A stretch of 64,000 bases of DNA from Haliotis asinina (taxonomy: Eukaryota; Mollusca; Gastropoda; Lepetellida; Haliotidae): positions 620,001-684,000 of the forward strand of contig NW_027133892.1 of assembly GCF_037392515.1 (NCBI RefSeq), in the 5' to 3' direction. A program made the translations under genes and the position numbers. This document shows, one piece after another, positions 8,190-60,480 of the stretch; position 1 is the first letter of the stretch; the number at the start of each line of letters is the position of its first letter. The notes below the pieces were generated by a model that saw only the letters and a list, made by a program, of their open reading frames with translations, was not told the origin of the DNA and made no database searches.

Positions 8190-9446
8190 TCAGAAATCCG
8201 TGGCACTGTAGCAGCTGTCAGTATTCCACCATTTATTCACATCATGGTATGTGTTTCCGAATCTCTCCAAGTCATGAATTTTCACACAAATATCGCACAA
8301 CGATGAATCTAAGGTTGACTTCGGATCTGTGATACCATACTGTGATTTCCGTCTCAGTATTTCAGCATATGCCGTATGATTTGAATCTAAATATTTCAAA
8401 TGATCGGCAAGTTTTTCTGGCGATGAAAAATCGGCTGTGTCGATGTATGTGCCCTTTGGAAGAAGGTTTGCATAGCTCGCCCCACCCCTCACCACGGGGA
8501 TGACATCCAAACTGTAACTCCGAAACACCTTTTCTGTCAGGTATCCTCGACATAGTGAATTCTCAAACGCCAGATAAAACTTGTATGTCGTTTGTTGAAG
8601 ATTATTACAACTGTTTGGTCCGGAGTTTTCACACTTGTGGGGTCCACATCCACCATAGATATCAACGCTGATGTACTGCTGAAGTTTTTTCACGTAGTCG
8701 TCGCGTTTCGACCGGGCATTGCAGTGACTTACCAACCACATGACGGGTTTAGTTTTCCTCTCAGTGATAGCCCGGAAATCTCGAACATCCGCTGCAGGTT
8801 TAGGCAGGAGCACGAAATACGGACAGACAATATCCGAGTCATATCTGAAAGTCATCGTCCAATTAAACCTATCATTCCATCGATTGAAGTCCCATGGAGC
8901 CTCGTGTGCAAAAAATATCCACATCTGATTGGCTGGTTTTGGTGGCGGTTTATCATCAGTAATCGACAGGACATAAAAGACGACTGCATCGGCTTGAGGA
9001 AGAAGTTTATGGTCACCAGATAATCTACAGTTTTGCAATCGGCAGTTGTTCAGACTATCCTTGTACCTTGTTTCAAACGTATGCCATGAAGGCATGTTGT
9101 ATATGATGATAAGTTTCTCTTCTGTCTTGTTTTGTGTGAAAATGTTTTCAACGCCCGTGAGATTATACCGCGACTTCTGGCGAAAATTGTCATTTGGGAA
9201 CTGCAAAACCGGGGACAGGAAATACGGGTGGTTGCTCTCACCGTTTGGCCATACAAGAAGAGATGACTTGTTATTTTCGAACCTTGAAATAGAAGAAACC
9301 ATCCTTGAATCAGAGGCAAGTCGTCGTGGGGGCTTGACGTTTACTCGGAAGACATTTGTGAGCGTGCTCCATATAAAAAGCACAAACAAGACCGCGGATG
9401 TACAGAACAATAGACGCTTGTTTCTTCGGCACACCATCTGAAACAT
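8190..9446 (-). CDS. Alpha-(1,3)-fucosyltransferase, GT10 family
   Basis: Predicted 418-residue type II Golgi enzyme that transfers fucose from GDP-fucose to GlcNAc on glycoproteins or glycolipids. Seen: a short basic cytosolic tail (RRNKR, about 7-11), one membrane anchor (about 12-29), a variable stem, then a GT10 catalytic region with FAHEAPWDF (179-187), TFRYDSDIVCPY (199-210), WLVSHCNARSKR (237-248) and the hallmark FYLAFENSLCRGYLTEK (290-306), followed by IPVVRGGASY. A Cys-containing C-terminal LCDIC and five N-glycosylation sequons (N59, N95, N106, N195, N356) fit a lumenal enzyme. Length is normal for metazoan FUTs and the coding region is one uninterrupted exon. An in-frame TAA lies just upstream, so ATG at 9446 is the first possible start. 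ATG at 9437 is also possible because TTTCTTTGTCGCTATGTTTCAG right before it looks like a 3' splice site for a 5'UTR intron. Acceptor specificity cannot be read from sequence. Confidence 0.93.
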   Translation of the reverse strand: MFQMVCRRNKRLLFCTSAVLFVLFIWSTLTNVFRVNVKPPRRLASDSRMVSSISRFENNKSSLLVWPNGESNHPYFLSPVLQFPNDNFRQKSRYNLTGVENIFTQNKTEEKLIIIYNMPSWHTFETRYKDSLNNCRLQNCRLSGDHKLLPQADAVVFYVLSITDDKPPPKPANQMWIFFAHEAPWDFNRWNDRFNWTMTFRYDSDIVCPYFVLLPKPAADVRDFRAITERKTKPVMWLVSHCNARSKRDDYVKKLQQYISVDIYGGCGPHKCENSGPNSCNNLQQTTYKFYLAFENSLCRGYLTEKVFRSYSLDVIPVVRGGASYANLLPKGTYIDTADFSSPEKLADHLKYLDSNHTAYAEILRRKSQYGITDPKSTLDSSLCDICVKIHDLERFGNTYHDVNKWWNTDSCYSATDF

Positions 9447-32575: not shown

Positions 32576-33960
32576 GTGATACATGCAGCCTAAAATCATA
32601 GTCAACCCAAATATATATTGGACAAAAATTACCATAAAGTTCAAAAGTGTTGGGAACTGATAATTTAGTTGTTTCCATCTGAAAGAACAAAGTCACGCGT
32701 CATGGAAACACCTCCCTCATGCCGTTTGGAACAGAAAATTGCCCATTTGTCAACTGTAATGTACTTCTTATAATAAATAGGTTTCAGGTTTAATTTTCAA
32801 GTAGAGGCAAGTAGGGTGTCACACCTTTATCAGTCTCTGTACATGACAGAGTGGAAAACCGTTTCTCAAAACGGGAAGATTCTGTCATTGAAGGAAGGAG
32901 GTGAAGCACAAATGTTTCCACGTTGTTGCATTTTCAGTGCTGAATAGCTTTCTCATTCAAGATAATGACATAAAAACAGAGATGGAAATTCGAAACAATA
33001 ACAAAAATTTTAGGTAGACTTTGTGACATACTTCAAGTAAGGAGTTTCAGAAAAGGGATGTTTTCCATTGCAGTTACATATGTTCACTATAGAGAATGGA
33101 GACAGCCAATACACTTTCCTCTTTATTAGAAATCGTTACTATACCATGAGTATTTGTTTGAATGAGGCCATACGTATCTCTACAAATGCCTTTGGTCAGC
33201 AAGCCTGGGCGTCTGAACAGAAGACACCCCGCACCGATTAACTGATCCATGGGTCATTCGGTGCAGCGTCAGTGAGCGCGAGAGACTCTATCAGTGACTG
33301 TCCCTCGCTGTGTTGCGTCCAGTCCACGCCTCGTCTTGAGCGAGTACTAGTGTACCTCTGTTCAGAACTCGTGTGTGGCTGTGTTCTCAACTGACATTTT
33401 ATCGACCAAACATCACTTGTTTATTCACTTGACTGGATTAGATACAATTTCTTTCAGTAGGCCCATAAAATACACCCTGTTTACTGTCAGTTACGTTCGT
33501 GCATACACATGTATCGGGGTTTGTGCATGAGATGGTGTCATTGCCACCGCTTGTACAAACTTCTAATGTCTCTATGCATGTACACCGAGTCTCTATACAT
33601 TGTAATTAAGACGTGAAGCAGTGACCCGAGATTTAAACGTTATACATGTACACTGAAATGTCAGCGGGACCTTCGAAGCAGAATATTCACGTGTTTTCAT
33701 TTATGTTCTATTTAGTGGAAAAAAATACCGCAATTTAGTGAGAAAAATACCTCAAAATTGCGTGGATATCCAGGAGTATTAATCTCACTCTATCCATTTG
33801 GGGTAATGTTTACGACTAAGAGAGAATTGTTTTCTCTCAGGACAGTTAAATTCACATACCTTAAGACAATTTAGAAGCCCCTCAGTTACATTGCAACAGG
33901 TATTTTGAATATGTTTTTAAATAATAATAATATTTCAAATCATGTTTTAAAGTTTTCTGT
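32576..33960. other. Non-coding stretch downstream of the SET gene
   Basis: A locally GC-richer patch lies at 33,190-33,400. No gene recognised. No AATAAA-type signal was needed for the SET gene given its 3' stem-loops. Confidence 0.35.
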
Positions 33961-33974
33961 TTGAATATATGGAT

Positions 33975-33990
33975 AGCCCTAAAAAGGGCC
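33975..33990 (-). terminator. Second histone-type 3' stem-loop
   Basis: Minus-strand GGCCCTTTTTAGGGCT: a 6-bp stem (the base pair is G-U) with a TTTT loop. It is followed by ATCCA, very close to the ACCCA cleavage flank of histone mRNAs, and by a purine-rich AAACAGAAAAC about 12 nt further, where a U7-pairing downstream element would lie. Confidence 0.75.
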
Positions 33991-33992
33991 AT

Positions 33993-34008
33993 GGTCCTGA
34001 AAAGGACC
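33993..34008 (-). terminator. Canonical histone mRNA 3' stem-loop
   Basis: Minus-strand GGTCCTTTTCAGGACC: a perfect 6-bp stem with a TTTC loop, preceded by CCCAAC and followed by A. This fits the metazoan histone stem-loop consensus bound by SLBP (GGYYYU-UHUH-ARRRCC with a CAAC-type 5' flank in invertebrates). It starts 14 nt after the TGA of the SET gene. The orientation is specific: on the plus strand the loop would be GAAA. Confidence 0.9.
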
Positions 34009-34022
34009 GTTGGGGGAACTTG

Positions 34023-34898
34023 TCAGGAGTCTCTGATGAAGGCTTCGAGTCCGTGCCGGTAGTCACCGTAGTTCCATGTAAGCTCAGCACCAGCACTTAC
34101 GTCCGTGATGGTGCACATCATGAACCTCCAACGCAGTGTCCCAGAACCCCCCAACTTATCCCATCTAATCTTACAATTTGGAGATTTCCAGCTGTGGTTC
34201 ATGGTCCCCCCCAAATTTTGATCAGGATGAATAACATCACCCTGAGAATTTCTATGGACGTCCAAAACTAAATCCTTCCTACCATGACCACCAACCATGT
34301 TAACGAACCGAAAAGACAAATGTTGCCTATCATACTCTCGCAACCTGTCTTCTACCTCCCCTATGGATATGACCTGGCCAATGTATTCACATACATCCTC
34401 CCCCGCCCGGTAATCTCGAGAAGCAAAAACCCCTTTCCCAATTTCGGTGCTGACAGGTGCTATGAACGGACCGGAATCAGTAACCCCCCTCCCTTCCCTC
34501 TCCTGTACTGACCTGCGAGTAGCGTACCCCCTCAAGGAATACCCCAATGGTTCTGCCAAAATGTCCCCTCCTTCACCCCCAAAGTTTCGACCAAACCTAA
34601 CCTGCATGATACGATACCCACGGCGTGGAGATTGAACGTAGGTGAAACCTGCGTTGATGGCAACCGTCTTGAACTGGCTGGTGAAGGCTTGGAACCGGGA
34701 GGCGAGCTTGTGAAGATTGGTGTCCGTCGTCCAGGCCTTGACTTTTGCGATATACTCTGCATGCAGATCTTGCGAAGGAATGACGTTCTCTTCGTTGATG
34801 GTGTAGAGTCTTGCAAACCTGGACAAGAACGGACAAAGGCAGGCACTTTCCTTTGGCTGGACAGAGAGACCCCGACGAAGTTCCCTTGCTCGTGGCAT
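34023..34898 (-). CDS. Intronless SET-domain protein lysine methyltransferase with histone-type gene ends
   Basis: A 291-residue protein starting at ATG 34898 (context CAAAATGC, A at -3). The SET domain spans about 150-282: G-K-G-V-F-A (154-159), E-Y-I-G (171-174), an insert of about 50 residues, L-D-V (212-214), M-N-H-S-W-K-S-P-N-C (233-242; the usual N-H-S-C-x-P-N with W in place of C) and E-L-T-W-N-Y-G-D-Y (272-280) with the catalytic-type tyrosine. There is no pre-SET or Cys-rich post-SET. Residues about 22-102 form a separate basic, helix-rich region ending RRGYRIMQVRFGR that looks like a winged-helix fold; that is inference. The family uses S-adenosylmethionine to methylate lysines, often on histones; the substrate here is unknown. 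The gene has one exon, a 45-nt predicted 5'UTR, a 14-nt spacer to a histone stem-loop, and a CCAAT/TATA/Inr promoter. It could be a host paralogue group or a captured gene. Confidence 0.88.
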   Translation of the reverse strand: MPRARELRRGLSVQPKESACLCPFLSRFARLYTINEENVIPSQDLHAEYIAKVKAWTTDTNLHKLASRFQAFTSQFKTVAINAGFTYVQSPRRGYRIMQVRFGRNFGGEGGDILAEPLGYSLRGYATRRSVQEREGRGVTDSGPFIAPVSTEIGKGVFASRDYRAGEDVCEYIGQVISIGEVEDRLREYDRQHLSFRFVNMVGGHGRKDLVLDVHRNSQGDVIHPDQNLGGTMNHSWKSPNCKIRWDKLGGSGTLRWRFMMCTITDVSAGAELTWNYGDYRHGLEAFIRDS

Positions 34899-34939: not shown

Positions 34940-35028
34940 GAATGAAGTGCGGTCTGACAGTCTCAGTCTTATATAGTCGCGCCCAAACCGGAATGACTGA
35001 CATCCATGATGTGGCGTCATCAGATTGG
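34940..35028 (-). promoter_or_regulatory. CCAAT / CRE-like / TATA / Inr core promoter of the SET gene
   Basis: On the minus strand: CCAAT at 35028-35024, TGACGCCA (CRE/ATF-like) at 35019-35012, TATATAAG at 34975-34968, and TCATTC, a match to the TCAKTY initiator, at 34945-34940. The first T of the TATA box is 32 bp from the A of the initiator (34943), the standard spacing. The predicted 5'UTR is 45 nt. The same arrangement is common in replication-dependent histone genes. Confidence 0.78.
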
Positions 35029-59412: not shown

Positions 59413-60480
59413 CTATCCAAAGAACAATGGGGTAAGACCGGTTTTGCTTAAAACGTTGCAAAAACACATGTTGAGGACCTTCCCAGTGGCATCCATAATC
59501 TGATGGATTGGTAAACCCCGACCTGAGGCTGCACTAGTTGATGCAGACCGGGTGCTGTGTACAGGGAAGGGGGTAACATCTATATCAGAGTCTCGCATCG
59601 CAGTCTTTAGCCACCTGGCGATAGTCTCTGTACCTACAGCTTTGTGTCGCTTGGAAAAACTGACCAACAACTGAGGAGTAGACCCAAGGTCAACGGTTCT
59701 TTCTAAATACTCTAACAAACACTTGACTACACATACATTCTCTACTTCTAAATTAGTCAATACAATGGGTTACAAGTGAAACCTTGGTCTGGACTGTTTT
59801 AGGAGATCAGTCACTCTAAAAATGACTTTGTCAGCACTAACAGTCATGTTGTCCAGTTTAAGGCACTGTAAGGTTTGGGATCTCTGACCAGTAATCAGTG
59901 CTAATAACATGGCGAATTTCAATTTTAAATCTTTCAGGGATAACGGGCTGTTCAAACCCTTCTGATCTAGAAATGTCAGTATTAAATTCTCATCCCAGGT
60001 TTCCTGGTATCTGGGTAAAGATGGTCTCGAGTTGAAAGCTCCTCTCAAAAATCTTTTTACAAGAACATGTCCTATTGGTATGCCTGAACGTAACGACAAA
60101 ACAGCAGATAATGCACTCCCGGCTGTATTAATAACACTGTACCCACAACCTTTTTCATACAACTCTGTGAGAAAGGAAATAACTAATATTAGATCTGGAT
60201 CAAGCGCATTTCTCCCTAATGCACTACAGAACTGCTCCCGCTGAGTCAGATATGTTTGATACTGTTTACAGGTTCCACTCCGCCAAGAATTCATTATAAT
60301 GGAAATGGATCTAGTGGATAGGCCAAGTTTCTGAAGACCCTCCCCGGCAAGTGGCACACAAGTAGTTCTCTTGTTGTGGAGTGGATGCAACATCTGTGGC
60401 TTGTAAGTCAACCCTAGAGTTTTCTTTCCTTTGGGAAGGATCCTGGGTGTTGTGACACACATTTTCATTGCTGCCGAGTA
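59413..60480 (-). pseudogene. DIRS-type tyrosine recombinase, inactive
   Basis: Minus-strand order: an N-terminal core-binding region (SISIIMNSWRSGTCKQYQTY, VISFLTELYEKGCGYSVINT, RFLRGAFNSRPSLPRYQETW), then the catalytic domain with Arg in TGQRSQTL and H-S-T-R-S-A-S-T in the H-x-x-R box. A frame break falls near 59,765. In the frame where the final nucleophile segment would be read (about 59,440-59,460), the tyrosine position is occupied by TAA. The recombinase therefore lacks its nucleophile and cannot integrate the element. Confidence 0.8.

Follow-up and report, generated by a model that had tools for sequence, protein, structure and literature searches.

A SET-domain gene family of Haliotis asinina with a histone-like 3' end

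The SLBP/U7 pathway is known for producing histone mRNAs that are confined to S phase and lack poly(A) tails. The window analysed here, a stretch of 64,000 nucleotides from Haliotis asinina, raises the question of whether a gene for a SET-domain protein could be expressed in the same manner. The original prediction for this stretch was that such a gene ends like a replication-dependent histone gene, and this reading is now strongly supported: the 3' end is histone-like, and a similar one also follows many diverged paralogues. In the literature, most subscription papers being outside the scope of our search, we found no histone-type 3' end reported on a SET gene, a MULE, a Polinton or a mollusc non-histone gene. 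The genome searched comprised 1.14 Gb in 159 contigs; L-numbers below denote loci and C-numbers contigs of this same genome, and L001 is the window's own SET copy.

The SET-domain gene and its protein

The gene proved to be intact as claimed, its frame containing zero internal stops (Table 1). Residues 154-278 of the product match the Pfam SET profile over positions 1-105 of 105, with an E-value of 2.5e-13 and 50.8 bits against a cut-off of 22.4. Like NSD2, KMT5A (SET8) and SETD2, the protein has a SET domain recognizable by sequence (PF00856) and the motifs NHS..NC and GxEL..Y, which are conserved across five aligned members of the family; unlike them, the window protein has no Pfam domain besides SET, its first 150 residues included, and NCBIfam gave zero matches for three proteins. 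With a profile of the family (positions about 144-289), the best E-values were 1.9e-11 for NSD2, 7.3e-11 for KMT5A and 2.3e-10 for SETD2. Histone methylation by the enzyme is plausible and, with these three relatives near-equal in score, we infer histones as its substrate only weakly. Searches of 5.8 billion proteins returned no relatives of the SET protein, either with the single sequence (573 candidates) or with the family alignment (3787 candidates) as the query, and among viral contigs 22 stretches fitted the pattern, 0 of which were confirmed. The AlphaFold model has a mean pLDDT of 44.9 and is thus too poor for use.

Table 1. Positions of the SET gene and of its promoter and 3' end elements in the window
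Feature	Position	Strand	Basis or remark
CCAAT box (GGCCAATC; ACCAATCAG in L006, L008 and the H3 promoter)	35024..35028	(-)	sequence reading
E2F-like TTTGGGCGCG (TTTTGGCGCG in L003 and L006)	34978..34987	(-)	sequence reading
TATA box TATATAAG	34968..34975	(-)	sequence reading
Initiator-like TCATTC; A 32 nt past the start of the TATA box	34940..34945	(-)	sequence reading
SET-domain gene, one open frame, 291 codons and stop	34023..34898	(-)	ORF list, PF00856, dN/dS
First histone-type stem-loop GGTCCTTTTCAGGACC	33993..34008	(-)	16 of 16 letters as in the H2A, H2B, H3 and H4 hairpin of L079
Second stem-loop GGCCCTTTTTAGGGCT, 18-nt tandem duplicate	33975..33990	(-)	RF00032, 31.1 bits; histone spacing to downstream element
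ATCCA, presumed cleavage site region	33970..33974	(-)	also ATCCA in this genome's H1, at the corresponding position
Histone-downstream-element-like AAACAGAAAACTT, presumed U7 site	33950..33962	(-)	H1 has CAAAAGAAAACTT at the same place

Eight full-length open copies of the gene were found (L001-L006, L008 and L039), some of which may be assembly duplicates, and all have the one open frame of L001, intronless as read in genomic DNA. The dN/dS ratio is 0.094 between L001 and L003, 0.238 between L001 and L006 and 0.231 between L001 and L008; the value of 0.609 for L008 and L039 comes from a near-identical pair with very few changes. Judged by such ratios, the intact SET proteins are under purifying selection.

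The ATG of the gene, at 34898, lies downstream of the CCAAT, E2F-like, TATA and TCATTC elements, of which we take TTTGGGCGCG to be a putative E2F-like motif and TCATTC a putative initiator. Judged by eye, L003, L006, L008 and L051 again contain CCAATC, GACTATAWAA and CATTC.

Elsewhere in the window, a fucosyltransferase gene occupies 8190-9446 (-) in one open frame (PF00852, E 6.3e-52), and a 232-aa frame at 59770-60468 (-), for which Pfam gave no match, presumably resembles a mobile-element tyrosine recombinase. In this genome, six egg lysin matches (PF01303) are clustered on C14 (best E 2.9e-12), and two of these exons match solved lysins (best E 1.5e-11 and 4.2e-8). Abalones and certain top shells are the animals known to have lysins, and the exons point to a vetigastropod, probably an abalone.

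The hairpins and the genome's own histones

The first hairpin begins 14 nt past the SET stop codon and has CCCAAC as its 5' flank; a second stem-loop follows in tandem, and beyond it come ATCCA and a downstream element rich in A, the whole series having the orientation of the gene, as had been described. The two hairpins, separated by AT, look like an 18-nt tandem duplication, with the proximal one as the duplicate. It is the distal hairpin, not the proximal, whose spacing to the downstream element is that of histones: the distance from the second stem to the A-rich element is 13 nt, equal to that in H1, with a few letters different. The distal hairpin is followed by ATCCA rather than ACCCA, as is the H1 hairpin here. 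The strict pattern GGYYCTTTYNAGRRCY has 2 matches on both strands of the 64 kb, which are these hairpins only, and a mean of 0.00 in 100 shuffles; when 2 mismatches are allowed, the 5 matches are not special against the 3.16 expected.

The genome's histone genes provide the natural standard for these elements. PF00125 has 87 matches in the genome, mostly in arrays on C27, C103, C11 and C40, and in the array unit L079 the H2A, H2B, H3 and H4 genes each end in GGTCCTTTTCAGGACC, with which L080 and L087 agree. These core histone ends have ..AAC on the 5' side of the hairpin, a flank that the first hairpin of the window has in common with them, and ACCAA and AAAAGAA..CTTG on the 3' side. Recognized as H1 from its sequence, the gene in L020 has GGCCCTTTTCAGGGCC-ATCCAAATACCCCAAAAGAAAACTTG at its end; the SET copy L006 has a first hairpin identical to this one, and its second hairpin lies 13 nt from AAAAGAAAACTT, as in H1. 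The hairpin, flank, spacing and downstream element of the window gene all resemble those of the genome's own histones. The downstream element deviates from the histone one in the window copy, and more so in L003-L005 (30.7 bits with the histone-only model R1 described below).

It had been proposed that a covariance search with RF00032 would recognize this 3' end. RF00032 is indeed the window's best Rfam match by E-value (33950-33995 (-), 31.1 bits, E 5.7e-5), but it falls below the gathering score of 34 bits, and nothing in the window reaches an Rfam gathering score. The histone ends of this genome score 39.9 (H1), 38.9, 37.8, 37.4 and 33.3 (H3) with the same model; since H3 scores 33.3, the cut-off of 34 itself loses a histone here. 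A covariance model built from five histone 3' ends only (R1: H2A, H2B, H3 and H4 from L079, and H1 from L020) gave 37.0 bits in the window at 34000-33942 (-) when run unfiltered, and the second-best of the 21 matches listed had 13.1. A whole-genome RF00032 search scored 75 of 157806 candidates, with the core histone arrays and the window unlisted, and its counts were set aside. Only the sub-threshold Rfam score speaks for hairpins placed by chance beside an ordinary gene. We regard this as extremely improbable, given that 0.00 strict matches are expected in the window, that the element follows 25 of the 48 SET-family loci, and that reversing the pattern of hairpin and downstream element brings its 269 genome-wide matches down to 0.

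As to the machinery, the SLBP RNA-binding domain has two matches on C15 (best E 2.8e-11). A search for U7 snRNA with RF00066 gave no match anywhere in the genome, the controls likewise remaining unmatched, and a U7 pattern combining the anti-element with an Sm site gave 4 matches versus 3 for its reversed control. L097, the one of these matches that was read, was dropped as a U7 candidate, its folding being no better than that of shuffles (z 0.19). The H1 gene lies in a tandem array at C6:42261096-42524455 with units of about 3.25 kb, and the unit read (L020) holds H1 together with 5S rRNA (RF00001, 109.7 bits).

Taken against the metazoan replication-dependent histone 3' end (RF00032, SLBP, U7 snRNP), the window gene is alike in its 6-bp stem, 4-nt T-rich loop and AAC-type 5' flank, in the ATCCA or ACCAA past the stem, in an A-rich element at equal distance, in its one open frame and in its compact promoter. 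It is unlike it in that a SET protein is encoded, the hairpin is doubled in the clade of the window copy, and the Rfam gathering score is missed.

The 3' end in SET paralogues and on apparently mobile DNA

Absence of the stem-loop from every paralogue had been named as grounds for rejecting the idea, and this is not what we found. The analysis covered 48 SET-family loci, L001 included, drawn from 93 match rows; 22 further places among these rows, many of them equal in score to those covered, lie outside it. The 25 loci matched by R1 at E <= 0.01 (23.1-53.4 bits) all have the element past the gene and in its orientation. Five more of the 48 (L043, L044, L048, L055 and L056) reach 17.1 bits at E 0.24, and in these the 5' half of the hairpin is deleted, as read in the sequences of L043, L048 and L055. 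The remaining 18 loci have no R1 match: six are copies without the C-terminal part (L042, L046, L049, L050, L054 and L076), three are fragments (L062, L063 and L069) and nine form a diverged clade on C13 at about 30-40% identity (L064-L066, L070-L074 and L077), in which 0 of 9 match. In all nine members of the C13 clade AATAAA or ATTAAA occurs 114-121 nt past the projected gene end, against a first occurrence at 600 nt in the window copy. The contrast between hairpin and poly(A) signal is unclean, because L057, L006 and L075 carry a hairpin and also a possible signal at 62, 165 and 173 nt, respectively. The C13 clade, which has a possible poly(A) signal and no hairpin, indicates that the histone-type 3' end was either acquired or lost in the course of this family's history. 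Some SET fragments recur every 240-345 kb or so (C4:13057720, 13299209, 13557046 and 13805550; C4:44672412, 45015429, 45345858 and 45676643), a pattern that very long tandem repeat units in the assembly would give.

The stem itself appears to be maintained. In an alignment of 14 3' ends (13 SET and H1), the rows of which are related, 95.2% of stem cells pair, and 2 of the 6 pairs are changed on both sides, in 6 cells. Covariation was 0.205 versus 0.113 after shuffling, with 0 of 500 shuffles as high, and three of five measures (covariation, cells paired and cells changed) beat all 500 shuffles; the number of pairs with changes on both sides (2) was equalled in 203 of 500 shuffles and that of further pair types (2) in 500 of 500. 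The mismatches are one C.A in L008, L039 and L041, another C.A in L060, L061, L067 and L068, and a T.C in L053. In blastn, L006 and L008, whose proteins are 61% identical, share a coding stretch and, besides that, only 25 nt over the hairpin, with no match in the promoter.

Such conservation bears on the possibility that the hairpins are inherited relics that no longer set the 3' end, the transcripts being mostly polyadenylated further downstream. Genes of histone variants whose 3' ends are of two kinds, H2A.X for example (PMC7807067), resemble the SET gene in carrying a histone-type 3' end outside the strict core set, and differ in that they encode histones whereas the SET gene is enzyme-like. 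Possible poly(A) signals do occur, the nearest being 520-876 nt away in L001-L005 and L007 and at 165 nt in L006, and the downstream element is slightly degraded in L001 and L003. Compensatory stem changes and a kept spacing between copies at dS of about 0.6 are hard to reconcile with a relic, as are the 37.0 bits that the window still obtains from a model of histones only, and we consider polyadenylation as the main mode quite unlikely.

The original prediction had also started from the view that this 3' end is essentially confined to histone mRNAs. At the DNA level this seems not to hold here, the same end being present on MULE-like transposase genes and on a Polinton-like gene pair. Of the 269 genome-wide matches 100 are listed, and with the H1 array set aside 45 of these fall on C1-C6; 0 of the 45 are at a PF00125 match. 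(One of these dispersed sites, C3:75283814, resembles the H2B end in its downstream sequence and could be the remnant of a histone gene.) MULE-like transposase genes account for 14 of the 45, the site lying 27-29 nt past their C-terminal piece. In L092 two pieces fit neighbouring segments of PF10551 with E 0.0087 and 1.5e-5, neither reaching the cut-off. In L091 and L092 the hairpin and downstream element of these genes are near-identical to the core histone ones, and R1 gives 73.8 bits for L091 (1164-1203) and 65.9 bits for L092 (1157-1197). The MULE-like comparison used 27 of 107 matching rows, and 13 of the 27 have no hairpin site, seven of them at 33-56% identity and six at 78-95%.

The second kind is a divergent pair of small frames with a hairpin at both ends, as in L010, where R1 gives 47.9 and 38.6 bits. 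Strict hairpins stand on both strands in 10 of the 11 loci L009-L019, and L012 has one strict hairpin and a second one by R1 (33.7 bits). The element is multicopy (L009-L019, L093 and L094), its frames having been read in L010, L093 and L094. Beside the pair in L010 lies a protease frame that is weakly adenain-like (PF00770, E 0.044, below the cut-off), and it is this weak match that suggests the label Polinton-like. Non-histone use of the histone-type 3' end thus seems to be widespread in the DNA of this genome.

Since two other apparently mobile gene kinds share the 3' end, and the SET family itself is present as numerous copies and degraded fragments, a good number of which are on C4 and C13, the SET gene might travel as cargo with a selfish element or once have belonged to one, with mobile DNA here using the histone-type 3' end for S-phase expression and the SET family spreading likewise. 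We judge this unlikely. Of the 11 inverted-repeat pairs in 9 kb around the window gene (20-40 nt long and 70-82% alike), none is convincing as terminal repeats, and there is no other ATG frame of at least 120 codons between 12106 and 43558 in the window. The blastn alignment of L001 with L006 is confined to the stretch between 104 nt upstream of the ATG and 122 nt past the last codon, with the TATA box inside it and the CCAAT box just outside, and the intact SET copies show the purifying selection noted above.

Proposed expression and its significance

We favor the reading that the intact SET copy, as a member of a multicopy family, is a replication-dependent histone-like gene whose mRNA is processed by SLBP and U7, and on the present sequences we consider this probable. 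The compact promoter with its CCAAT, E2F-like, TATA and TCATTC elements would give rise to a short transcript, which would be cut about 5 nt past a histone-type stem-loop, with SLBP bound to the hairpin and the U7 snRNP to the downstream purines. The simplest reading would place the cut behind the second hairpin, and the proximal hairpin could bind a second SLBP. The product would be a non-polyadenylated mRNA, stable in S phase only, and the enzyme would be made while new histones are being deposited. An S-phase SET mRNA lacking poly(A) is to be expected because of the known biology of SLBP and U7, from which we infer its cleavage, its lack of poly(A), its S-phase expression and its pairing with U7. 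A putative lysine methyltransferase would in this way be coupled to histone supply.

A broader proposal can be put forward, tentatively, as one that may or may not prove correct with nearly equal likelihood. A host SET family maintained by purifying selection would share the histone-type 3' end with two or more unrelated kinds of mobile DNA, MULE-like and Polinton-like, and each would thereby gain S-phase expression independent of poly(A). New histones would be the substrate of the SET enzyme, which might also work on behalf of the mobile elements expressed at that time, or against them.

If true, a SET family with a histone 3' end would break the rule that this end belongs to histones only, and a chromatin writer would be coupled to histone supply through common 3' processing. 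Transcriptomes selected for poly(A) would then miss such genes. The presence of the histone-type 3' end on transposase genes suggests that S-phase 3' processing is usable by selfish DNA. These observations suggest that a 3' end device of the cell cycle may have a wider use than thought.
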